Positions 10,001-48,229 of a stretch of DNA of 64,000 bases are shown in pieces. The notes beneath the pieces were generated by a model. That model was not told the DNA's origin. It ran no database searches and saw only the letters and a list, made by a program, of their open reading frames with translations. The DNA is from Candidatus Saccharimonadota bacterium (GTDB lineage Bacteria > Patescibacteriota > Saccharimonadia > Saccharimonadales > UBA4665): NCBI GenBank assembly GCA_028289125.1, contig JAQGGZ010000006.1, positions 62,001 to 126,000 on the forward strand, written 5' to 3'. Positions within the stretch are counted from its first letter, which is position 1. Every line of letters begins with the position of its first letter. Both the position numbers and the translations under genes were made by a program.

Positions 10001-10599
10001 TTGGTGGTGGCCTTGTTGTTGATGAATAAGAACGGATTGTCGGATTTGAACAGCGCCTTGATACCGACGGTGCACGGATAAGCGGCGTTCGTCACGTCGG
10101 TACCGCTGGCGCAGCTGATCGAGACAATGTCAGCTTTGGAAAAAATCTGGTTGGCGGGGTCGGCGAGGTTGACCTGGAGCTGGGTGGCGGCGTCGTAGTT
10201 GGCAGTGTTGGCGGTGATGTCGATCGCGCTCGTCGTCTGAGAAATCGACAGGTTGGTCAGGACTGCGTCAGAAGGCATCAGGCTGCCGAGCCGGGTCAGA
10301 AGCTGCGAGAACAGGATTTCTTTGGACAGCACGGTATTCATGAGCTTCAGATTGTTTGACATGTCAGTGATCTGTTTCTCAGTCGCTTTCAAATTCTGAC
10401 TGGCCAGACTGGCTTCAGTCTGACTTATCTCGGTACGGTATGATGCCGCTGAGCGGCCGAGCAGGATAAGTCCGGCCGTCGTCAGTGCTGTCAGACCGAT
10501 GAAGACGCACAGCAGCGCCACGCACCAGTGCAACAGACGATAATTATAGCGGGCGTAACGGAAGCCTTGCTTGATATCCGGAGGAAGCAGGTTGATCAT
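9997..10599 (-). CDS. pilN: PilN-like pilus assembly protein
   Basis: 200 residues. The N-terminal INLLPPDIKQG motif is the conserved PilN segment that docks in the groove of PilM. One membrane segment (VALLCVFIGLTALTTAGLIL), a coiled coil and a C-terminal alpha/beta domain follow. It overlaps pilM and pilO by 4 bases each. Confidence 0.88.
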   Translation of the reverse strand: MINLLPPDIKQGFRYARYNYRLLHWCVALLCVFIGLTALTTAGLILLGRSAASYRTEISQTEASLASQNLKATEKQITDMSNNLKLMNTVLSKEILFSQLLTRLGSLMPSDAVLTNLSISQTTSAIDITANTANYDAATQLQVNLADPANQIFSKADIVSISCASGTDVTNAAYPCTVGIKALFKSDNPFLFINNKATTK

Positions 10600-11678
10600 A
10601 CGAACAGCCCCTGTGGTGAAGCCAGTGCTAAACCGGCGGCAGTGACGTATGACATCCGATCAGCGCCCATGATGTGCTTCAAATGACCAAAATCGACCAT
10701 CGTCGTCATATCAAGGGACCGGACCGGGAGGCGTAACTGTTCGGTCAGCCGTTCGGCCATGCCGGGCATGTTGGCGCCACCACCCATGATGACGACCTGT
10801 TCAATGGCAGGTTCGCTGGTGTAGCGCTGTTCGTAGTAGCGGATCGTGCGGCGGATTTCGCGGACCAACGTCTCAAGGGAAGGAGCGATGGCGCTGACCA
10901 CCTGGTCCTGCACCGGCCCGCTGGCCAGACCGTATTTGCTCTTGAGGATGACCGCCTGGCGTTCTGAGATGCCGAGCGCCTTCACGATGGTCGTCGTCAC
11001 GTCGTCACCGCCGTAAGCCACCGTGCCGGTCACGACAGGCTCGCCGCGGACGATGGTGATGTCGGTACTTTTCGCACCGAAGTCCACCAGCACGGTCGGT
11101 ACGTTTCCCTGCGGGTCACGTGAGAACAGACGGGCACTGGCACCGATGGTGGTGTCGAGCATAACCGTTTCCAGCCCCAGCAACTGCATCAGGACCATGT
11201 ATGAGTCAACGATGGCCTTGGGAACGGCCACGACGAACACCTCAAGGCCATCATCATTCTGGCGCAGGGTTGTGTAGTCAAGGTATAAGTTCTCGATGTC
11301 GGCTGGAATATTCTGTTCGGCGTCGTTGTAGACGGCTTCAGCGATGTCGTGGGCACTCATCAGCGGCAGTTTCACCGCCCGGGTGAGAGCACGGCTGACC
11401 GGAACCGATACGGCGACGCGGCGGGTGCTGACGTCGCCTTCAAGTTCTTGAGAGAACAGTTTATACGCTGACTTGGCAATCAGCTCGGGGCGCACGATCA
11501 CGCCGTCGACGATGGCACTGTCGTCAAAGAGAATAGAGCCATAACCCATCATCCGTGGTATGGCGCGGTCGGTCTCAAATTGGACTACGCGGAGCATGTC
11601 GTGCCCGATATCCAAACCGAACAACGGTTTGTCGCGCAAGACATACGTCCGAGATATGTTATTTTTGGTTGGTTTCAT
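10596..11678 (-). CDS. pilM: Type IV pilus assembly ATPase-like protein PilM
   Basis: 360 residues, actin-like fold. Phosphate-1 motif FGLDIGHDMLRVVQ, phosphate-2-like VLVDFGAKSTDITIV and adenosine motif VVIMGGGANMPGM are all present. It is cytoplasmic, binds ATP and recruits PilN. An SD (AAGGGTGG) lies just before the ATG. A TATAAT at about 11714 could give a sub-operon promoter for pilMNO, separate from the pilin genes upstream. Confidence 0.92.
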   Translation of the reverse strand: MKPTKNNISRTYVLRDKPLFGLDIGHDMLRVVQFETDRAIPRMMGYGSILFDDSAIVDGVIVRPELIAKSAYKLFSQELEGDVSTRRVAVSVPVSRALTRAVKLPLMSAHDIAEAVYNDAEQNIPADIENLYLDYTTLRQNDDGLEVFVVAVPKAIVDSYMVLMQLLGLETVMLDTTIGASARLFSRDPQGNVPTVLVDFGAKSTDITIVRGEPVVTGTVAYGGDDVTTTIVKALGISERQAVILKSKYGLASGPVQDQVVSAIAPSLETLVREIRRTIRYYEQRYTSEPAIEQVVIMGGGANMPGMAERLTEQLRLPVRSLDMTTMVDFGHLKHIMGADRMSYVTAAGLALASPQGLFV

Positions 11679-11728: not shown

Positions 11729-13123
11729 TTATGGACCAAAGAGCGGCTGGTAGCTGGTGATCGTCCAGGTTTTGGAACCTGACGTAAGCGTGGTGCCGAA
11801 GATAACGGTGCCCGCGCCACTGAGATCCAACGTCTGACCGGCAACGGCGCCGACATTGCCACTCCCAGCCAATGATAGTTTGCCCCAATATGAGTTAAAT
11901 ATCATTCCCGGTAAGTTGACCGACCCGCCAATTGTTACCGTCTGAAGCGCTTGCGAAGTTTTTAAATCATTGCCGCTAACAGTTGTGCAGTCAGGATTAC
12001 ACGGAGCGCTACTTTTGAAACTGATAAACTGGATTCCCGTGCCGCTAGCATTGGATACTAAGCTCGCCGAACCTCCGACGGTGATGGTGCCGTCTACTAT
12101 GATATTAGGCCGTGTCGTTCCTACCGTATCAGCAACAGTAATCCGTGAAGCTCCACCTATATTCAGGTTGCCCGTAATATATACGTCCCCGCTTATGACT
12201 ATATTACAACTTCCTGCTATGGATACGTTGCCAGTTAGTTTCAATTTAGCAGGCCACGTACGGTTAAAAGGATAAGAATTACATACGTAACTATTGCTGG
12301 TACCTGCGGCGGTGGTGGTAACCGCATTGATATGAGATTGGCGGTCGTAGGTGGGCATGGGTGCGACCGGCGTGGTACAACCGGTCTTCAAGCCGCTCCC
12401 ACCATTGCCTGGCTGAATGTTGTTATTAGGACCAGTGCTCGTTTGCCCGGTAGCACATACCGTTCCGTAGATATACGTGCTGCTTGCAAGACTGATGGGT
12501 TGACTTCCGTCGGCACAAACTTGTGGGTAAGTACTGCCGGGTGATGCCCCGCTTGGGCACGCATTATTTGCAACGAAAACACTGACCGGATTATTATACG
12601 TTCCGATTTTAGCTGAACCTGTCATCTTGATCGTGCCATTGACGTAAACCTGCGAGTTTGTAATTGTGCCGCTGCCGCTGAGGATCAATCCGCCCGCACC
12701 CCCGTAGACCGAGTAACCGCTACTGTTCGTGCCAACGACGATTGCCCGTACCTTTCGGGTAAGGTACGGTGTCGCAGGGCTGGATTGTCGGTACACTTTA
12801 CCGGTAGACTCGATAGTTTTTGATGTGCCATCGCTATTCATGGTGATAGTGGTCGTAAAAGTACCTTTGCCTTGGGAGGCCGTGTCAAAAAATACATTTG
12901 GCGTACTATAACCGGCGAAATTATCATCGACGTTAAGTTGATGAACGGTCTGTTCGATGCCGGCTTCCGCGACTAACAGAGCGTTCTGCTCATAAACCAT
13001 CCGTTTAGTATGTTGATATTGCTGGGTAGACAGTTCAGCGATGCTAACGCCTAAAATACTCAAAAACATAATCATGACCACTGCCGAGACCAGTACGTAG
13101 CCGTGTTCGATACGTTTATTCAT
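11729..13123 (-). CDS. PilX-like pilus-associated protein with large beta-rich C-terminal region
   Basis: 464 residues. The N-terminus (GYVLVSAVVMIMFLSILGVSIAE) is a PilX/GspK-style hydrophobic helix without a classical G/FTLIE motif. The rest is Gly/Ser/Thr/Asn-rich and looks like a right-handed beta-solenoid. It alternates phrases such as GSGTITNSQVYVNG and LAGSGNVGAVAGQT, resembling polymer-forming (bactofilin/DUF342-like) repeats. Several Cys pairs are present. It may sit at the pilus tip as an adhesin; that is inference from position among minor pilins and its size. Confidence 0.7.
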   Translation of the reverse strand: MNKRIEHGYVLVSAVVMIMFLSILGVSIAELSTQQYQHTKRMVYEQNALLVAEAGIEQTVHQLNVDDNFAGYSTPNVFFDTASQGKGTFTTTITMNSDGTSKTIESTGKVYRQSSPATPYLTRKVRAIVVGTNSSGYSVYGGAGGLILSGSGTITNSQVYVNGTIKMTGSAKIGTYNNPVSVFVANNACPSGASPGSTYPQVCADGSQPISLASSTYIYGTVCATGQTSTGPNNNIQPGNGGSGLKTGCTTPVAPMPTYDRQSHINAVTTTAAGTSNSYVCNSYPFNRTWPAKLKLTGNVSIAGSCNIVISGDVYITGNLNIGGASRITVADTVGTTRPNIIVDGTITVGGSASLVSNASGTGIQFISFKSSAPCNPDCTTVSGNDLKTSQALQTVTIGGSVNLPGMIFNSYWGKLSLAGSGNVGAVAGQTLDLSGAGTVIFGTTLTSGSKTWTITSYQPLFGP

Positions 13124-40677: not shown

Positions 40678-41067
40678 TTAGCTATTGTCGATGGAAGTCT
40701 TGTTAAGCGTATCGCCCGGCTCGGCGGTGGAGTTATTTTTTTCGACAACGCTGTACTCATCTTCCGTAAGGATAACCTTTTCTATCTTATTCACCTGATG
40801 TTTCAGCATCACGATGAAGGCATCGCGATTCTGATGGATTTTCTGATAGATGCTTAGTTTTATTGGAATGCGGGCCTCACAGTTTTCGTCGGAGCATTCA
40901 CATTTGAACTGTAACAGAATGTCATCGCTGCGTACGAGCATAGGATGGCCGTATTCAATGTGGAGCGCGTCGATTTCATCCAGCTTATCACCCACGACTT
41001 CATTAGCCCGCCGGAAAATCATCTCATTTTCTATCTGGCGTCGTTCGGTGACGGATACCTTCTTCAT
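40678..41067 (-). CDS. Hypothetical protein with Cys-rich CxC(x5)C motif
   Basis: 129 residues. A short motif FKCECSDENCEARIPI followed by LSIYQKIHQNRDAFIVMLKH is shared with small actinobacterial proteins in which a C-E-C-S/G-D-x-x-C motif probably binds zinc. No catalytic domain is visible. The -10 box TACTAT lies 6 bases before the ATG. Confidence 0.65.
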   Translation of the reverse strand: MKKVSVTERRQIENEMIFRRANEVVGDKLDEIDALHIEYGHPMLVRSDDILLQFKCECSDENCEARIPIKLSIYQKIHQNRDAFIVMLKHQVNKIEKVILTEDEYSVVEKNNSTAEPGDTLNKTSIDNS

Positions 41068-41073
41068 ATGCTT

Positions 41074-41079
41074 ATAGTA
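41074..41079 (-). promoter_or_regulatory. -10 box, leaderless spacing
   Basis: TACTAT on the minus strand, 6 bases before the ATG at 41067. Confidence 0.55.
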
Positions 41080-41117
41080 GCAGCTTAGGTTACGGATGCC
41101 TCAAAGATATTTGAATG

Positions 41118-41150
41118 TAAAAAAAAGAGGCACGTATTGTGCCTCTTTAA
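41118..41150 (-). terminator. Terminator of predicted small RNA
   Basis: 10-bp perfect stem with a 5-base loop and a T run on the minus strand. Confidence 0.85.
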
Positions 41151-41260
41151 ATCTGGGAAGTCTTGCACCCACAGATGTAGCCTACTAACTAACAAACTAT
41201 CAAAACTTACTAACTCGAACGGCTACATATACTTAACGTGCTGTATCACTTGGACTTCCA
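41118..41260 (-). ncRNA. Predicted small RNA of about 140 nt
   Basis: There is no open frame. It has its own promoter (TTGACG 41294-41289, 17-base spacer, TACATT 41271-41266) and a strong terminator (AAAGAGGCAC / GTGCCTCTTT, then T8 on the minus strand). Two nested helices fold the transcript into one long hairpin: 41253-41259 with 41156-41162, and 41221-41228 with 41175-41182. An asymmetric internal bubble and a loop of about 38 bases rich in GTTAGT repeats lie between. A rod with a central bubble is reminiscent of 6S RNA, but I cannot confirm the family. Confidence 0.62.
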
Positions 41261-41265
41261 TAAAT

Positions 41266-41294
41266 AATGTATCAAGCTGAAAATATATCGTCAA
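41266..41294 (-). promoter_or_regulatory. Promoter of predicted small RNA
   Basis: TTGACG, a 17-base spacer and TACATT. Confidence 0.65.
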
Positions 41295-41320
41295 GACTTT
41301 TTAGTGTAAATCAGCGGCGA

Positions 41321-41357
41321 TGCAGGGGGTAAAGCCATCGTGCACGCTATCGCACCC
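41321..41357 (-). repeat. Interspersed repeat copy A
   Basis: Most divergent copy of a family also at 44144, 44741 and 45101. On the minus strand it reads TGCGATAGCGTGCACGATGG, close to copy B, but it lacks the tRNA-like CCCTCCA end. Confidence 0.5.
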
Positions 41358-41393
41358 GGCGTTGATTCGGCTAAATTGTCTTCTCCGAAGACT

Positions 41394-42449
41394 TTACTGT
41401 ATTTTTTCATTTGGCCGAGCGACCAATTTTTCGGTAGGGTATAAGACCTGCAGAAGATTATCTACGGACTGCTCGACGGTGTATAGGGTTCCGACTGCTC
41501 GTCGTATGGCCTCAGGCAGCGGGCCTTTAGAGATTGCGAGCGCTATACCTTGCGCGAGCGCTTCTGAATCATCTGGTTTTACTAAAATGACACCGCCGCA
41601 ATCAGTTTCCGGCAGACCACCATCGTTCGAGGCTACTACACGGCATCCGGAATGTTGCGCTTCGATGGATACGATACCGAACGTCTCATGCCAGTACTGG
41701 CTATTTGATGGCATTACGACTATATCCTGGACCGCCATAAGTTCCGCCATGGCAGCTGGGGTTTTTCTAGCGGTAATGACTGTTATGTTAGGGTGTGCAT
41801 CTAGTAATAATTTAATGAGCTTCCCCTCAGGCTTATCGGCACCGGCAGTCGTAACTGTAAAGGCAAGGTTGGAATTAGAATAGAGCACATCCCGATGCAG
41901 CGCTTCCAAGAGCGTGTAAACGCCTTTTTGGGCGCTCAGCCGCCCCGCGAACAGTATTCTTACGGCTGCGGTATTATTGTATTCTCGCGTCTGAACAGCA
42001 AAACATGGTTCGGCGAATGGGTAAACTACATGCACCTCGGCGCGTGGCCGAGGAATATAATCTGCCCAAAGTTGAGCAGCGTAGCGACTAGGTGTGATTA
42101 GTGTCCTTCCTTCAAGTGCCTTCAGCATTGCTGGCCGGGCCGCTTCTCGCAGAGGCGGAGGTATGTGCATTATTGCAAAAGCCGGGTTTTTTGTCTTTGT
42201 AGCGCCTGTTTCATCATTTACAAAAATGACGATTCCTTCAAGCGTTGTTATGTCTGCTTCGGTCTGGAGCGCTTTAAAAGGTATGTCAACAAATTCCTCA
42301 CGTCCATCCTGGGTGCCAAGTCCAGTAGTGACGATCCGGGCAGCTACACCGCGGCTGATCAGCTCTCGAACCTGTCCGATGGTGTAGTTTTCGGTACCCC
42401 CTGTCCCTGCGGGTAACCTGGTTCCTGGCGACCAAATAAAGTTAATCAT
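41394..42449 (-). CDS. Glycosyltransferase family 4
   Basis: 351 residues. ILFAGRLSAQKGVYTLLEAL and SQYWHETFGIVSIEAQHSGC mark the GT4 C-terminal donor domain with the E-x7-E-like pair. The N-terminus (SPGTRLPAGTGGTENYTIGQV) is the acceptor domain. Its start overlaps the GH13 gene by 8 bases, so both form one operon. Acceptor unknown; with GH13 it suggests alpha-glucan or trehalose/maltose chemistry. Confidence 0.88.
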   Translation of the reverse strand: MINFIWSPGTRLPAGTGGTENYTIGQVRELISRGVAARIVTTGLGTQDGREEFVDIPFKALQTEADITTLEGIVIFVNDETGATKTKNPAFAIMHIPPPLREAARPAMLKALEGRTLITPSRYAAQLWADYIPRPRAEVHVVYPFAEPCFAVQTREYNNTAAVRILFAGRLSAQKGVYTLLEALHRDVLYSNSNLAFTVTTAGADKPEGKLIKLLLDAHPNITVITARKTPAAMAELMAVQDIVVMPSNSQYWHETFGIVSIEAQHSGCRVVASNDGGLPETDCGGVILVKPDDSEALAQGIALAISKGPLPEAIRRAVGTLYTVEQSVDNLLQVLYPTEKLVARPNEKIQ

Positions 42450-44055
42450 GTGAGACCTGTATCACCACGCCCTCATTGGCCTGAAGTGTTAGGTGACCGT
42501 TCACGGTCGCACCTTCATCCTCGAAGTGGGTCGAGACGACAATAGTGCCTTCAAGGTCATTTATTACAAGCTTTTGATTGAGGTCAGAAAAGTTAAGCAG
42601 CACAAGTAAGATTTCATTTCCCAGACGTCGTTCATAGCTCAAGACGTGCTCATATTTGGTAACCGGCTTGTAACTGCCGTATCGCAGCACACGAGATTGA
42701 TTCCGGAACCGAAGGAGCCGCTTATAGAGGTTGAGTGATGAACTCGGATCTGCTGCTTCGGTGTGAACATTTATTCTCTTGTAGTCATCAGAGACGGGGA
42801 GCCAAGGCGTAGCGGTTGTGAAGCCCGCTTGTGGTGCGTTACTCCACTGCATCGGAGTACGCTCCGGATCGCGGCCGTTTTGTTTACCAGCGAATGGGTC
42901 GCGTATCTTGTCTTGTGAAATGTCAACATCATGCATACCTAGCTCTTCGCCGTAATATATAAACGCCATGCCTGGCAGGGTCAACAACATGACTGCCGCG
43001 GTACGCGCGGCTGCGTTGCCGACACGCGTGGCGATGCGCGACTCGTCGTGGTTTCCGACGGTGTAGATAGGAACGTATCCAGGCTTCATGGCTGCTTGAA
43101 ATGTATCAATAAACCGGCCGAATTCCGGTGCTTTCCAAGGCAGGTATATGCCTTGGAAGTTAAATGGCGCGCTGAGATGCGGATTTACTCCCTGGTAGTA
43201 ACGCAGATACCCGGTGATTTTATCGTCTGTCTCGGGATGTGCTTCGGTAATCATAAAACGATCTTTGTATTCTTCGAGCACGCTGGTCATCTCATTGAGC
43301 CGTTCGAATAAGTGTGGACCATCACGGCTATAGACATGCCTTAGTGACGAGTGATCATATCCCGGGACTGCATCAATGGCATTTTCATCGACAGGGTCGT
43401 CCCGGAATGCCGCATCTTTAGACATCCAATCGACAGCATCGACCCGAAAGCCATCGACACCGCGGTCCAGCCAGAAGCGCATGGCCGACTTCATGGCTTT
43501 CCGGACGGTATCATTATCCCAGTTCAAGTCCGGCTGTTTGGCAAGAAAGCTATGTAGATAGTACTGACCACTTGGCTCGTCCAACTGCCAGGCTGAGCCG
43601 CCAAAGACACTCAGCCAGTTGTTGGGCGGTCCGCCGTCCGCGGCCGGATCGCGCCAGATATACCAGTCCCGTTTATCGCTGGTAGGTGAGGACCGCGATT
43701 CTATAAACCAGGGGTGTTCGTCGGATGTATGATTGGGAACGAAATCGAGTAATACTTTAATAGATCGTTTGTGGGCTTCCACGACTAGTGTTTCCATGTC
43801 CTCCAGGGTGCCAAAAATCGGATCGACATCAGTGTAATTGCTGACGTCATAACCAAAATCGGCCATCGGTGAGGTATAGATGGGTGAAAGCCAGATAGCC
43901 GTAATGCCGAGAGAATCAGGTGTGCCGGCCAAGTAATCGAGCTTATCAATAATTCCTCGCAAATTACCAACGCCGGTGCCTAGGGAATCATTGAAGCTCC
44001 GGGGATATATCTGATAGATTACGGCACCTAGAAGCCATGATTGTGAGTGGTTTAT
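42442..44055 (-). CDS. GH13 alpha-glucosidase family enzyme, non-canonical start
   Basis: About 538 residues. Conserved regions: YQIYPRSFNDSLG, DFVPNHTSDEHPWF, FRVDAVDWM (nucleophile Asp), ITEAHPETDD (acid/base Glu) and TVGNHDESR (Asp). This fits oligo-1,6-glucosidase/alpha-glucosidase enzymes. Homology clearly begins near 44037, upstream of the first TTG codon at 43962, yet the frame has no ATG, GTG, TTG or CTG there before a stop at 44061. An ATA at 44055 lies exactly 6 bases after CATACT and may be the start codon. Confidence 0.85.
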   Translation of the reverse strand: MNHSQSWLLGAVIYQIYPRSFNDSLGTGVGNLRGIIDKLDYLAGTPDSLGITAIWLSPIYTSPMADFGYDVSNYTDVDPIFGTLEDMETLVVEAHKRSIKVLLDFVPNHTSDEHPWFIESRSSPTSDKRDWYIWRDPAADGGPPNNWLSVFGGSAWQLDEPSGQYYLHSFLAKQPDLNWDNDTVRKAMKSAMRFWLDRGVDGFRVDAVDWMSKDAAFRDDPVDENAIDAVPGYDHSSLRHVYSRDGPHLFERLNEMTSVLEEYKDRFMITEAHPETDDKITGYLRYYQGVNPHLSAPFNFQGIYLPWKAPEFGRFIDTFQAAMKPGYVPIYTVGNHDESRIATRVGNAAARTAAVMLLTLPGMAFIYYGEELGMHDVDISQDKIRDPFAGKQNGRDPERTPMQWSNAPQAGFTTATPWLPVSDDYKRINVHTEAADPSSSLNLYKRLLRFRNQSRVLRYGSYKPVTKYEHVLSYERRLGNEILLVLLNFSDLNQKLVINDLEGTIVVSTHFEDEGATVNGHLTLQANEGVVIQVSHD

Positions 44056-44061
44056 CTTTTA

Positions 44062-44067
44062 AGTATG
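44062..44067 (-). promoter_or_regulatory. -10 box of GH13 gene
   Basis: CATACT on the minus strand, 6 bases before the in-frame ATA codon at 44055. Confidence 0.4.
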
Positions 44068-44094
44068 GACTGAAGATGGTGAATATACTAATAA

Positions 44095-44120
44095 AGCGAC
44101 CTTGTTATAACAAGGTCGCT
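44095..44120 (-). terminator. Perfect palindrome, likely terminator after Nudix gene
   Basis: A 26-base perfect inverted repeat (each arm 13 bases, AGCGACCTTGTTA) followed by TTTATT on the minus strand. Confidence 0.6.
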
Positions 44121-44143
44121 AGATAAGATAATATATTTTATTA

Positions 44144-44179
44144 CGGAACTGGAGGGCCGCTATGCACGTTATCGCAACT
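44144..44179 (-). repeat. Interspersed repeat copy B
   Basis: Minus strand: GTTGCGATAACGTGCATAGC and then GGCCCTCCA. The last nine bases equal the 3' end of tRNA-Lys at 47252-47328. Confidence 0.6.
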
Positions 44180-44198
44180 GCAGTAGGAGCAACTCGTC

Positions 44199-44693
44199 CT
44201 ACGATTTATGGTCTTTAATTCGACTGTATTCCTCCATGGTGTTAACGAAACCGCCCGTAAACTTTTCGGGGCTGGTCTCCATTAGCTTCTTTATGTCCTC
44301 TAGCTTCATTGGGATAATTTCTTCTACTTCTTCGTTCGGGACAAACTTCCAGTTTTTGTCTGCTACGCATTCAAAAAGGCCAAACATGTGCAGGTATACC
44401 CTTTCATCAGAATAAAATGTCGAAACGTGAGCCAGTGATTGCTTAATTCCGAGCTCTTCGTCAGCTTCTCGTGCTGCGGCTGTAGGGTAATCCTCGCCTT
44501 TAGAAACGTGGCCTCCCACTGAATGGTCATATAATCCGCCGCTCGTTTTATGGACTTGGACATACAATTCACCGGCCTCATTGAAGACGTATACCGCAGC
44601 AACGCGGTGCAGTTGCTTGTTAGCGTGAGCCGTTGGCTTATCAGTCGTGCCAATGATCCTGTCGTTTTCGTCAATTAGGTCAAATTGTTCCAT
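44199..44693 (-). CDS. Nudix hydrolase
   Basis: 164 residues. The Nudix box is complete (GGHVSKGEDYPTAAAREADE followed by ELGI). The N-terminus (FDLIDENDRIIGTTDKPTAH and QLHRVAAVYVF) is close to IPP-isomerase-like/YfcD-type Nudix proteins. It hydrolyses a nucleoside diphosphate-linked or related substrate. The -10 box TAGAAT is 6 bases before the ATG. It forms a single-gene unit with a repeat and palindrome after it. Confidence 0.92.
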   Translation of the reverse strand: MEQFDLIDENDRIIGTTDKPTAHANKQLHRVAAVYVFNEAGELYVQVHKTSGGLYDHSVGGHVSKGEDYPTAAAREADEELGIKQSLAHVSTFYSDERVYLHMFGLFECVADKNWKFVPNEEVEEIIPMKLEDIKKLMETSPEKFTGGFVNTMEEYSRIKDHKS

Positions 44694-44699
44694 GAGCTC

Positions 44700-44705
44700 A
44701 TTCTA
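44700..44705 (-). promoter_or_regulatory. -10 box of Nudix gene, leaderless spacing
   Basis: TAGAAT on the minus strand, 6 bases before the ATG at 44693. Confidence 0.55.
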
Positions 44706-44707
44706 AC

Positions 44708-44739
44708 AAAAAGACCTCTGAAAAACAGAGGTCTGAAAA
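44708..44739 (-). terminator. Terminator after SemiSWEET gene
   Basis: AGACCTCTG / CAGAGGTCT stem with T5 on the minus strand. Confidence 0.8.
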
Positions 44740-44740
44740 T

Positions 44741-44778
44741 GCTTATGCTTGGAGGGCTATCGTAATGGCTATTGCAAC
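44741..44778 (-). repeat. Interspersed repeat copy C
   Basis: Minus strand: GTTGCAATAGCCATTACGAT, then AGCCCTCCAAGCATAAGC. The second part matches the tRNA-Lys 3' end plus its downstream flank. Confidence 0.65.
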
Positions 44779-44783
44779 AAAAA

Positions 44784-45050
44784 TCAACGTATAAGCAGTA
44801 CAAGTACGATAGCGAATTCAATAAATAATAGCGGAATGTACGTGATTACTAATGGCTTCACTTTATGTTTAATGCTGAAAAGAGCGAATATTCCCGCTTG
44901 GAGTGTATAGAAGGACCAGGTAACAATTGATACGCCCTGTAAATTATCCGCGGTAATAACGCTATATAACTGCGGAAGGGTAACGATCGGCATACAGATA
45001 CCGACCATTGTCGTCAGTTTATCAAGGTTCTTATTTTTATTTTTCCCCAT
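44784..45050 (-). CDS. SemiSWEET-type PQ-loop sugar transporter
   Basis: 88 residues with three membrane helices, the full SemiSWEET length. The PQ motif is in MPIVTLPQLYSV. GVSIVTWSFYTLQAGIFALFS is the second helix. SemiSWEETs act as homodimeric facilitators for sugars. Its location beside GH13 and GT4 genes supports a sugar role. A TATACT box lies 13 bases upstream. Confidence 0.85.
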   Translation of the reverse strand: MGKNKNKNLDKLTTMVGICMPIVTLPQLYSVITADNLQGVSIVTWSFYTLQAGIFALFSIKHKVKPLVITYIPLLFIEFAIVLVLLIR

Positions 45051-45071
45051 AAATATTATTTGTAGTATAGC

Positions 45072-45095
45072 AAAAAACCTCCATCGCGGAGGTTT
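45072..45095 (-). terminator. Terminator next to repeat D
   Basis: AAACCTCC / GGAGGTTT stem and T run on the minus strand. No minus-strand gene ends just upstream of it. Confidence 0.7.
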
Positions 45096-45100
45096 AAAGT

Positions 45101-45138
45101 GCTTATGCTTGGAGGGGCAGCGTAGACGTTATCGCAAC
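45101..45138 (-). repeat. Interspersed repeat copy D
   Basis: Minus strand: GTTGCGATAACGTCTACGCT, then GCCCCTCCAAGCATAAGC. It matches copy C and the tRNA-Lys 3' end and flank. Confidence 0.65.
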
Positions 45139-45167
45139 TTACTTCACTAATATAAATGTGAAATTGC

Positions 45168-45173
45168 TATGAT
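45168..45173 (+). promoter_or_regulatory. -10 box of sortase gene, leaderless spacing
   Basis: TATGAT, then 6 bases to the ATG at 45180. Confidence 0.6.
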
Positions 45174-45179
45174 AAGCGT

Positions 45180-45836
45180 ATGAGCCAAAAAGATATGACA
45201 CCGGCTAACAGGCAAAATTTCGGCTGGGCATATATCTTATTTGGAACCATATTGGCAGCTGTCGCTCTATTCTTATACGTTCATCAGCATATATTAGAGA
45301 CACGGCCACCGATGACATCGTGGTCTGTTCCTTCATCCGTGAAGCCACCGGCAAAGGCAATAAATACATACAGAGTTCCGGCTGACAATCCGAAATACAT
45401 AGCTATTCCAGCAATTGATGTCGGCAAGACCCGGACTATACAGCTTGGAGTGTTGGCCAATGGCTCAATCGCCGTGCCGGACAATATCTACGACGCCGGC
45501 TGGTATGGTGCTAGTTCTAAACCGGGCCAGAATGGCGCGATGTTTGTGTACGGGCATGTTTCCAGTTGGAAGGCGAACGGCATCTTTTATGATCTCAAGA
45601 AACTCAAAGCGGGCGAGACGGTTATTGTCACAAATGGAGCAAACAAAGTTTTTACGTACCGAGTCATCAACATCAAACGATATGCCTATGACAAAGTTGA
45701 CATGGGCCAGGTGTTGGCACCAGTTAATCCTATGATGGCAGGGCTCAACCTAATGACCTGTGCCGGACAAATCATCAAAGGCACCAGCGAGTTTAGCGAA
45801 CGGCTGGTGGTATTTACGAGTTTAGTTAGCTCGTAG
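45180..45836 (+). CDS. Sortase
   Basis: 218 residues. N-terminal membrane anchor (AYILFGTILAAVALFLYVH), then a sortase beta-barrel. Catalytic His in FVYGHVSSW, Cys in LMTCAG and Arg in FSERLVVF are all present. The short loops suggest class E/F-like enzymes. It attaches LPxTG-type proteins to the cell wall outside the membrane. The convergent gene encodes a protein ending in a variant signal (APDTG), probably its dedicated substrate, and LPHTG proteins at 7722, 58849 and 60504 are further candidates. Confidence 0.9.
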   Translation: MSQKDMTPANRQNFGWAYILFGTILAAVALFLYVHQHILETRPPMTSWSVPSSVKPPAKAINTYRVPADNPKYIAIPAIDVGKTRTIQLGVLANGSIAVPDNIYDAGWYGASSKPGQNGAMFVYGHVSSWKANGIFYDLKKLKAGETVIVTNGANKVFTYRVINIKRYAYDKVDMGQVLAPVNPMMAGLNLMTCAGQIIKGTSEFSERLVVFTSLVSS

Positions 45837-47148
45837 TCCTGGATTTATAGACTTTCGCCAGCCCGAGTGCGATACTGACGGTTGCTACAACTGACAACGA
45901 CAGAGCGATCTTATCCGAGCCGGAGGGGGAGCCGTACCCGGTGTCCGGGGCCTTTGGAACGGTGCTAACAACAGGGTTGGCTATAACAGTTGAACTGCCT
46001 CCGGAGTTCACGACGACTGGTGCGGGATCGCTGTAATTCATGACCATAGCTTGCCCGGTGACATTGTCAGCGAACCCAAGATACAGCATGCCATTTCTAT
46101 CTATCTGGAGTGACTCTGAGACAGCCTCATTGTCTGTAAAACCAACGCTGCCAACAACCTGCCAGCTTGTGCCGTCAAACTTCCGAACAGACGCTTTGCC
46201 AGCTTGACTATTATCGTAATACGCCACGTACGGTGTGCCATCGCTCCTAATTGCAAGTGAAGTATATGTTGCTTGAGTACTCGTGACACTACCCCCTACA
46301 GGCACCCAGCTCGTGCCATTAAACTTCATTGCGGCAGCTCGAAAACCGTTGGCTTGGTCTACAAATGCGACATATGGCGTACCGCTGCCGTCTATAGCGA
46401 GTGAAGGATAACTCGTGCCGCCTGTTGTGAACTCTGCGTTTCCTACTGTCACCCAAGATGTACCATCGAATTTCATTACCGTCGCATTACCACTTGTATT
46501 TAAGTCTGAATAAGCTACGTATGGCGTTCCGGTACTGTTTATAGCTATAGAGCCATAATAAACTCCTGCAGAAGAGAACCCGACACTGCCTACCGTCACC
46601 CAAGATGTACCATCGAATTTCTTAACTGTAGCCTCGCCCGCACCTATAGTTAAGTCTCGGTAATACACATATGGCGTACCGCTGCTATCGATAGCCATTG
46701 ATTGGAATTCTGAGGCTCCTGCGGAGATACCGACAGTTCCAACTATCACCCACGAGGATCCATCAAACTTCATTACCGACGTTTTTGTACCATTCGCGAC
46801 ATCCCGATAAGCTACATAGGGCGTTCCGCTGCCATCGACGGCGAGTGATTCAAAGTCTGCTTGGCCGGAGGTAAATCCAGCACTACCAACCGTTACCCAT
46901 GACGAACCGTCAAACTTTTTGACTGTTGCTCCATTTGCAGCATTAACGTCACTATAGGCAATATACGGGGTACCGCTGCTATCCAGTGCAAGTGAAGGAT
47001 TATTAACGACTCCACCAGAAATGCCACCACCACCTACCACTTGCCATGAACTAGCAGCAAGCGCGTTTGGCGTAATGACAAAACTAGCGAACAGAATGCT
47101 CGCTAGTAAGTAACTAGTTTTCCTTTTCCAGTTGTGTTGATGTTTCAT
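45826..47148 (-). CDS. Secreted beta-propeller repeat protein with APDTG sorting signal
   Basis: About 440 residues from the ATG at 47148. Signal peptide (LLASILFASFVITPNALA). About six repeats of roughly 52 residues follow, each with a SLAVDGSGTPYVAY-like strand and MKFDGSSWVTVG, forming a beta-propeller. The C-terminus has APDTGYG, a hydrophobic helix and KSR, a sorting signal variant. It is probably a surface-exposed binding protein anchored by the sortase encoded tail to tail with it (11-base overlap). AAGGG precedes the ATG. Confidence 0.82.
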   Translation of the reverse strand: MKHQHNWKRKTSYLLASILFASFVITPNALAASSWQVVGGGGISGGVVNNPSLALDSSGTPYIAYSDVNAANGATVKKFDGSSWVTVGSAGFTSGQADFESLAVDGSGTPYVAYRDVANGTKTSVMKFDGSSWVIVGTVGISAGASEFQSMAIDSSGTPYVYYRDLTIGAGEATVKKFDGTSWVTVGSVGFSSAGVYYGSIAINSTGTPYVAYSDLNTSGNATVMKFDGTSWVTVGNAEFTTGGTSYPSLAIDGSGTPYVAFVDQANGFRAAAMKFNGTSWVPVGGSVTSTQATYTSLAIRSDGTPYVAYYDNSQAGKASVRKFDGTSWQVVGSVGFTDNEAVSESLQIDRNGMLYLGFADNVTGQAMVMNYSDPAPVVVNSGGSSTVIANPVVSTVPKAPDTGYGSPSGSDKIALSLSVVATVSIALGLAKVYKSRTTS

Positions 47149-47212
47149 TTTTATTTGCCCTTCATAAAGCATATGCTAATACCTACACTCTACTCTTAAG
47201 GTAAAGAAAAAC

Positions 47213-47236
47213 AAAAGACTCCACTTTGGAGTCTTT
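47213..47236 (-). terminator. Terminator of tRNA-Lys
   Basis: AAAAGACTCCA / TGGAGTCTTTT perfect stem. Confidence 0.85.
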
Positions 47237-47251
47237 TATAATGATTATGCT

Positions 47252-47328
47252 TGGAGGGCCAGGAGGGACTTGAACCCTCGACACCCTGCTTAAGAGGCAG
47301 GTGCTCTAACCAGCTGAGCTACTGGCCC
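47252..47328 (-). tRNA. tRNA-Lys (anticodon CTT)
   Basis: 77 bases with encoded CCA. Acceptor stem GGGCCAG / CTGGCCC, anticodon loop CTCTTAA. Its 3' end and flank (CCCTCCAAGCATAA) recur in the repeats at 44741 and 45101. Confidence 0.94.
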
Positions 47329-47416: not shown

Positions 47417-48229
47417 ATGAAATTACTCAATGGCGCTGAACTGGCCAGTTATATCAAAGAGCGCCAAGCGAAGCAGGTGCGTGCCCTGCGGCAGGCTGAT
47501 GGCACCGCCCCGAAGCTTGCTATCGTTGTGACGGTCGACCATCCGGCTATAAACATCTATATGCGGATGAAGTCGCGCTATGGCGATGATGTCCTGATCG
47601 ATGTTGACATCCATAAGATCGACCAAGCTGAAGCTGTCGCCACGATCGAGCAGCTTAATAACGATCCGTCGGTGCACGGCATCATTGTGCAGTTACCCCT
47701 CGCCGACCCGTCGCAGACGCAAGAAATCGTCGATCTGGTAGCTCCGGAAAAGGACGTTGATGCGCTTGGCGTTAACGCGGTCTTCGAACCGGCCACGCCG
47801 CTCGCCATTATGTGGCTCCTGGCGGGCTATAACATAAATCTGCCTGGCAAGAATATTGCCCTTGTCGGCCGCGGCCGCTTAGTGGGCGCTCCTTTAGAAC
47901 GGCTGATGCAGGCATCCGGATTGGAACCGACCGTCATCGACAGTCAAACCAAGAATACCTCCGAGATTCTACAGGATGCCGACATCGTCATCACCGCCAC
48001 CGGTAAACCGGGACTTATCAAAGAAAGCGATATCAAATATGGCGCCGTCGTCGTCGACGCCGGCGTGGCCGGAGAGCAGGGAAAAACGGTCGGAGACCTG
48101 GACGAGGCTATCTACCAACGCGATGATCTGACGATAACACCCAAAAAGGGCGGCGTCGGCCCGCTGACTATTTGTGCCTTATTCGACAATGTCATCCGGG
48201 CAGCCCGCGATACCGTAACCCGCCCTTAG
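47417..48229 (+). CDS. folD: Methylenetetrahydrofolate dehydrogenase/cyclohydrolase
   Basis: 270 residues. It interconverts 5,10-methylene-, methenyl- and 10-formyl-THF. The active-site Lys is in the Y-x3-K motif IYMRMKSRYG. HGIIVQLPLADP, DVDALGVN, the Rossmann segment NIALVGRGRLVGAPL (normally GRSxxVGxP, here GRGRLVG) and the PKKGGVGPLTICAL end are conserved. It overlaps murD convergently by 4 bases. Confidence 0.94.
   Translation: MKLLNGAELASYIKERQAKQVRALRQADGTAPKLAIVVTVDHPAINIYMRMKSRYGDDVLIDVDIHKIDQAEAVATIEQLNNDPSVHGIIVQLPLADPSQTQEIVDLVAPEKDVDALGVNAVFEPATPLAIMWLLAGYNINLPGKNIALVGRGRLVGAPLERLMQASGLEPTVIDSQTKNTSEILQDADIVITATGKPGLIKESDIKYGAVVVDAGVAGEQGKTVGDLDEAIYQRDDLTITPKKGGVGPLTICALFDNVIRAARDTVTRP

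Follow-up and report, generated by a model that had tools for sequence, protein, structure and literature searches.

What kind of process lines up a row of gene-bearing units, each closed by the same short repeat, behind a single tRNA-Lys gene? The question is raised by a window of 64,000 nucleotides (contig JAQGGZ010000006.1, positions 62,001 to 126,000), belonging to a Candidatus Saccharimonadota genome of 874 kb that is 89% complete (G000 in our comparison). Saccharibacteria live on other bacteria as very small parasites or symbionts, and their genomes measure about 1 Mb. On the minus strand of the window, four units lie 3' of tRNA-Lys(CTT), each of them closed by a 29-bp site with the consensus GTTGCGATAGCGTCTACGATGGCCCTCCA. 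We propose that they form a cassette array produced by site-specific integration into the 3' end of tRNA-Lys, the most likely enzyme being a large serine recombinase (LSR), and we assign this proposal a probability of roughly 0.77. The anchor, the sites and the units that they delimit are the following:

47252-47328, minus strand: tRNA-Lys(CTT), the anchor, attB-like; found by ARAGORN, 72 bits against the Rfam tRNA model; its 3' end, GGCCCTCCA, supplies the shared half of the recombination site
45110-45138, minus strand: site D, GTTGCGATAACGTCTACGCTGCCCCTCCA; 41.3 bits against the site matrix, E 1.3e-6 with the model of its own genome
44750-44778, minus strand: site C, GTTGCAATAGCCATTACGATAGCCCTCCA; 35.6 bits against the site matrix
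44150-44178, minus strand: site B, GTTGCGATAACGTGCATAGCGGCCCTCCA; 35.0 bits against the site matrix
41328-41356, minus strand: site A, GGTGCGATAGCGTGCACGATGGCTTTACC; 13.9 bits; 23 bases kept on the left, the tRNA-like end on the right decayed (CTTTACC for CCCTCCA)
45110-47251, minus strand: cassette 1, 2142 bp, beginning right after the tRNA CCA and closing with site D; boundaries by the site matrix
44750-45109, minus strand: cassette 2, 360 bp, one gene
44150-44749, minus strand: cassette 3, 600 bp, one gene
41328-44149, minus strand: cassette 4, 2.8 kb, lying farthest from the tRNA, between site B and the end of site A

The initial annotation of this DNA had described four repeats of the same orientation near tRNA-Lys, and all of them are present: sites A to D share the minus strand and align as 29-mers without a gap. 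The last nine bases of the site are the tRNA 3' end, which is intact in B, carries one change in C and D and is lost in A. The same annotation had read the repeats at C and D as the tRNA-Lys 3' end plus its downstream flank. One correction is needed here: AGCATAA, the supposed flank, is strictly speaking no tRNA flank but a recurrent type of cassette head, and the tRNA is itself followed by the head of the first cassette. Within the window the site scores fall away from the tRNA (41, 36, 35 and 14 bits), and an Rfam scan of the region gave the tRNA as the sole family above threshold.

The site is not peculiar to this genome. Downstream of tRNA-Lys in other genera, GTTGCGATA-type sequence stands before copies of the tRNA-Lys end, and a pattern search found sites in 33 of the 93 genomes of the family, with no match for a control pattern. 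The tRNA half is needed in such a pattern, because a shorter one that omits it returned noise (52 + 69 matches against 87 + 82 in the control). When 0.57 Mb was scanned with a weight matrix built from 69 sites, 102 sites of at least 14 bits were found, and the reversed sequence gave none. A sequence-model search located sites in 84 of 393 genomes of the order, representing 59 of its 151 genera. In a phylum-wide sample the model matched 6 of 380 genomes, all of one class, and the single match outside the order, in another family of that class, has five sites behind tRNA-Lys. Sites of one genome resemble each other barely more than expected by chance (6.3 against 7.0 differences in 22 nt). Could the repeats be nothing more than ordinary transcription terminators or chance matches? 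Terminators do adjoin them, yet the sole copies in G000 stand at the tRNA-Lys array (CCCTCCAAGCATAA occurs three times in the 874-kb genome, always there), reversed controls contain none, and orientation and position relative to tRNA-Lys are strict. This explanation deserves practically no credence, and the possibility that the repeat is a terminator used throughout the genome, which the initial annotation had set against its own proposal, falls with it.

The placement of the sites is strongly polar. Of the sites around 52 tRNA-Lys genes, 134 are downstream and on the strand of the tRNA, against 3 that are upstream and 2 that are on the opposite strand; the loci were mostly picked for having sites, a choice that leaves side and strand free. 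Both tRNA-Lys(CTT) and tRNA-Lys(TTT) act as anchors. That the arrays derive from site-specific integration at tRNA-Lys is in our judgement very probable. Repeated integration at a tRNA end and an integron-like array with a non-standard site had been offered in the initial annotation as two descriptions, and the data support both of them, as descriptions of one system. A tRNA-Lys gene is occasionally seen within an array: tRNA-Lys(TTT) lies inside one in G082 (L202:1640-1715), and in G052 (L353) two copies, at 10213-10289 and 11861-11937, have a cassette between them. Such genes are either cassette-borne or effects of assembly. In L127, the 3' end of tRNA-Arg is repeated (CGGGTGTACCA) 148 bases past tRNA-Arg(TCG) (11071-11147, minus strand), and behind the repeated end stands GTTCGCTTATGCTTG, which equals the head motif described below; this hints at a comparable event at tRNA-Arg.

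In the genomes compared, sites and tRNAs delimit 162 cassettes with a median length of 779 bp, 86% of which are shorter than 2 kb; one open reading frame is present in 93 of them and two in 39. The 283 cassette proteins fall into 228 clusters. Toxin-antitoxin pairs of the RelB/RelE type (8 loci) and the Phd/VapC type (5 loci) are the commonest contents, and the others are diverse, including Nudix and HAD hydrolases and transporters, with a few matches to defence families. The largest array (G043, L363) has about 22 sites in 18 kb and sits in a 20-kb stretch of 43% G+C, against 50% beyond it. At the DNA level 13 groups of related cassettes are recognised, whose members occur in other genera and at other positions and whose homology begins at the first base after CCA. 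For example, a Phd/VapC cassette stands directly behind tRNA-Lys at L130:312, and its relative (81%) behind an array site at L214:10483. Between G071 and G082, which belong to one genus, some cassettes are common at 98-99% and others differ.

The comparison with G001 and G038 brings the same point to the window itself, where two backbone genes frame the array:

47417-48229, plus strand: folD-like backbone gene, conserved beside the tRNA; 52 of 60 genomes have relatives of it, and it is in synteny with tRNA-Lys
40678-41067, minus strand: backbone gene of unknown function beyond the distal array end; 78% in G001 and 69% in G038, at the same place in both

The tRNA-Lys/folD neighbourhood is kept in many relatives. 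In G000, G001 and G038 both flanks are conserved, namely folD with tRNA-Lys on one side and the gene at 40678-41067 or its relative on the other, and the cassettes between them differ, the kind of variation in gene content that the initial annotation had named as support for its proposal. None of the cassette genes of the window was found in the G001 or G038 arrays, and nucleotide homology to G001 (L125) spans 40680-41312 of the window and ends beside site A.

Which enzyme could act on these sites? In G129, tRNA-Lys is followed by a 557-aa LSR (PF00239) whose gene overlaps the tRNA by its 3' end, then by other genes and finally by a cassette-type site. The same succession is found in G068, G076 and G041, the last from another family, so that all four fully visible tRNA-Lys LSR elements end in a cassette-type site. 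A tree built from 32 LSRs groups the six members that lie close to the query and overlap tRNA-Lys into a single clade with a support of 100/100 (carried by G129, G068, G076, G041, G052 and G348); in other clades the overlap is with different tRNAs (Asn, Gln, Pro, Trp, Gly and others). The six genomes with a Lys-clade LSR all belong to the 84 site-bearing ones, which would happen by chance with a probability of about 8e-5 if kinship is ignored, and the examined loci with LSRs at other tRNAs contained no such sites or arrays. We consider that the tRNA-Lys LSR clade is probably the enzyme. The initial annotation had instead suggested a tyrosine recombinase; the LSR, which overlaps tRNA-Lys and belongs to a single clade, is the better candidate despite its absence from G000. 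The only serine recombinase of G000 falls outside the Lys clade, and the 16 kb examined around its gene contain no tRNA.

A tyrosine recombinase would enter the picture if a chromosomal XerC/D-like enzyme acted on the sites, as such enzymes do on the dif-like sites of mobile elements. Xer is indeed the only tyrosine recombinase in G000, G004, G005, G025, G001 and G021, all of them array-bearing, and an 11+6+12 layout can be read into the sites. However, most genomes, with or without an array, have a single tyrosine recombinase, and Xer is equally present where arrays are lacking; the two arms of the site do not form an inverted repeat; what is shared is a tRNA end and not a dif-like spacer; and the LSR clade alone fits both the target and the ends of the elements. 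We regard the action of Xer as very unlikely.

Two further observations concern these recombinases. LSR genes at L331-L345 and L382-L391 typically end inside a tRNA gene of the opposite strand (Asn, Gln, Pro, Trp, Gly, Arg, Tyr, Met), the tRNA depending largely on the clade, and a position at a tRNA 3' end seems to be the norm for LSRs in Saccharibacteria. A second, unrelated LSR group overlaps tRNA-Lys(CTT) in G017 (L347:12660-14393), where only one weak site of 18.6 bits was seen, on a different contig (L346:5709). As to the site itself, the least conserved positions of its left arm in the consensus are 6, 12, 15 and 18, spaced by 3 or 6, and its antisense strand is in frame with the LSR end (TGG AGG GCC ...); the left arm might therefore once have coded for the C-terminus of an LSR.

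The existence of LSR elements at tRNA-Lys also lends itself to another explanation, in which the array consists of the scars of successive LSR elements, each decayed to a remnant between att sites, and cassettes never moved singly. Complete LSR elements, 5.6-11.5 kb long and ending in the same site, are present at tRNA-Lys, a fragment of an LSR gene remains beside tRNA-Lys in G065, and accretion together with cis-mobilizable elements has been described at the streptococcal tRNA-Lys (PMC5704250). Most cassettes, however, bear no sign of such an origin: they are compact and uniform in the lengths given above and are filled by an intact gene or a toxin-antitoxin pair, and the same compact cassette recurs in different genera and positions, which is not expected from independent decay. 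We find this explanation unlikely, though less so than the other alternatives to our proposal.

Several results weigh against integration by an LSR as proposed here. The Lys-clade LSR was found neither in G000, at 89% completeness, nor in 78 of the 84 site-bearing genomes. The attP sites reconstructed for four LSR elements have no inverted repeat marking recombinase half-sites, and viral contigs searched for a vehicle yielded no site and no relative of the LSR. The decay of site scores with distance from the tRNA is only weakly polar overall (p 0.039). Among the genomes compared, G071 and G082 are the best pair from one genus, and they include no strain pair of which one member has a given cassette and the other lacks it. 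Finally, many of the assemblies compared are fragmented.

With these points taken into account, we propose the following course of events for LSR-mediated integration. The cassette would exist as a circle with one site, composed of a left arm (about GTTGCGATAGCGTCTACGAT), a core equal to the tRNA end GGCCCTCCA, and its own head, often with a terminator. Crossover in the core would connect the tRNA with the head of the cassette, restoring the tRNA sequence and a terminator behind it, and would leave left arm and core at the far end of the cassette, before whatever stood there earlier. Repeated rounds would produce the order tRNA-cassette-site-cassette-site in one direction. The LSR would arrive on larger elements with the same site and move cassettes in trans, presumably still at present. 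In sites such as D (CTGCCCCTCCA) and those of G032 (TAGCCCCTCCA), the sequence immediately preceding CCCTCCA departs from that of the tRNA, the tRNAs themselves being intact; should these departures predate the insertion, the crossover would have taken place inside CCCTCCA.

The heads of the cassettes are consistent with this course. A terminator is found within the first 100 bases of 63 of the 162 cassettes and of 28 of the 45 that are adjacent to a tRNA, against 2.9% of background positions, and all four cassettes of the window have one in the head. Insertion directly behind CCA separates the tRNA from its terminator, and therefore a terminator borne by the cassette restores the unit; we infer that restoring the tRNA transcription unit is the purpose of the head terminator. 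The AGCATAA that follows CCCTCCA belongs to a recurrent head type, AAGCATAAGC, which 28 of 162 heads show when up to 2 mismatches are allowed, compared with 1.9% of background positions. The reverse complement of this motif, GCTTATGCTT, lies just behind CCA in 42 of 162 heads (again up to 2 mismatches, background below 2%); window examples of one or the other form are at 47242-47251, 45100-45109 and 44740-44749. Displaced tRNA terminators were sought at the far end of the arrays and were clear in L127, L348 and L351; since cassettes too have similar hairpins, they carry little weight as a general argument.

The terminators and genes of the four window cassettes are listed in their order from the tRNA:

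47213-47237, minus strand: hairpin terminator in the cassette 1 head, immediately following tRNA-Lys
45826-47172, minus strand: secreted repeat protein of 448 aa with signal peptide and a C-terminal APDTG, hydrophobic segment and basic tail (sortase substrate type); beta-propeller-type Pfam matches
45180-45836, plus strand: sortase of 218 aa (PF04203, 4e-18); nearest NCBIfam model NF033748, class F, 7e-29, below its cut-off
45075-45095, minus strand: hairpin terminator in the head of cassette 2
44784-45050, minus strand: SemiSWEET sugar transporter of 88 aa (NF037969, 1e-10, below its cut-off); G089 and G153 have cassettes with relatives (L355, L364)
44712-44734, minus strand: hairpin terminator in the head of cassette 3
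44199-44693, minus strand: Nudix hydrolase of 164 aa (PF00293, 1.5e-13); relatives in G068 arrays (L206, L207) and a shortened copy in G130 (L212)
44096-44119, minus strand: hairpin terminator in the head of cassette 4
42442-44022, minus strand: GH13 enzyme of the alpha-glucosidase/alpha-amylase type (PF00128, 1e-139)
41394-42449, minus strand: GT4 glycosyltransferase (PF00534, 3e-20); nearest relatives in Saccharibacteria and Actinomycetes (L004-L057)

Between 45180 and 47172 one cassette holds a sortase and, on the opposite strand, a surface protein with a PDTG-type sorting signal, so that an enzyme and its probable substrate travel together. A relative of the sortase (61%) is found in G038 (L350) in a cassette flanked by two sites. 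The GT4 protein has three Saccharibacteria assemblies among its best relatives and is 52-63% identical to actinomycete proteins over nearly the full length, the latter suggesting a transfer of the gene between Saccharibacteria and Actinomycetes.

Around one fifth of the sampled order holds such an exchangeable store of genes, comprising surface proteins with their sortase, sugar transporters, nucleotide hydrolases and toxin-antitoxin pairs, and the tRNA-Lys arrays offer a defined place in which to seek strain-specific adaptation in Saccharibacteria. The results suggest that cassette arrays can arise from an LSR and a tRNA end, with no integron integrase involved; if this is true, these tiny bacteria possess an unreported route for collecting genes. 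LSRs with matched tRNA-end sites could also serve as integration tools. The open-access literature on integrons, tRNA integration and serine recombinases in these bacteria, to which our search was directed and which leaves subscription papers and preprints outside its scope, contained no description of the arrays, and in our view they represent a real, widespread and unreported gene-cassette system.

How do they compare with systems already known? The nearest in appearance are integrons, especially the sedentary chromosomal ones, with which they share a single platform, small and mostly single-gene cassettes in one orientation, a site at the 3' end and diverse contents. Scattered toxin-antitoxin cassettes are another common trait, known from the V. 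cholerae superintegron (PMC11551772). We considered a divergent true integron whose IntI and attC have escaped recognition, to which the cassette organisation, the toxin-antitoxin cassettes, the single insertion point and the wide gene diversity would all conform. Against it, no IntI is present: the tyrosine recombinase of G000 scores 136 bits with TIGR02249, for which the cut-off is 265, and fits XerC/D better. The RYYYAAC/GTTRRRY boxes of attC are absent at sites A to D, in agreement with the mismatch to the attC core remarked upon in the initial annotation, and the consensus site forms no stable hairpin. A divergent integron is exceedingly improbable, and membership in the integrons is rejected because the integrase and attC tests both fail. 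A secondary-structure reading of the site was likewise dropped, the consensus folding at -3.4 and -2.5 kcal/mol, more weakly than shuffled sequences at -5.4 kcal/mol. In contrast to integrons, the arrays have neither IntI nor attI; their sites contain a tRNA end in place of attC boxes and hairpin; the platform is a tRNA gene, a functional analogue of attI; and many cassettes bring a terminator.

The staphylococcal cassette chromosome (SCC) and composite SCC islands are moved by Ccr large serine recombinases, insert at the 3' end of a conserved gene and form tandem elements, some of which lack a recombinase. The candidate enzyme here belongs to the same class, and NCBIfam Ccr models are among the nearest to the tRNA-Lys LSR, although in a test for ccrA/B/C its best score was 67 bits against a cut-off of 900. 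The target also differs, being tRNA-Lys here and rlmH in SCC, as does the size, with a median below 1 kb for the cassettes and tens of kb for SCC.

At the 3' end of the streptococcal tRNA-Lys, repeated integration leads to accretion of integrative and conjugative elements (ICE), integrative and mobilizable elements (IME) and cis-mobilizable elements (CIME), among them elements that keep att sites and have no integrase (PMC5704250). Integrase-free elements bounded by att sites and arranged in tandem at one target are found here as well, but the streptococcal islands involve tyrosine recombinases and decayed ICEs and IMEs, whereas the arrays consist of compact gene cassettes. Genomic islands at tRNA genes (tDNA islands), usually made by tyrosine integrases (PMC4383910), resemble the arrays in that the tRNA 3' end is duplicated at the far end of the insert, and differ from them in that LSR genes overlap the tRNA 3' end here and related LSR groups occupy many tRNAs. 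Set beside these systems, the arrays may represent a separate, non-integron cassette platform, and we hold the odds to be even that this is so: an LSR would recombine double-stranded sites, one half of which is a tRNA end, on a tRNA-Lys platform, cassettes would move in trans among Saccharibacteria, and they would be kept long after the enzyme has been lost.

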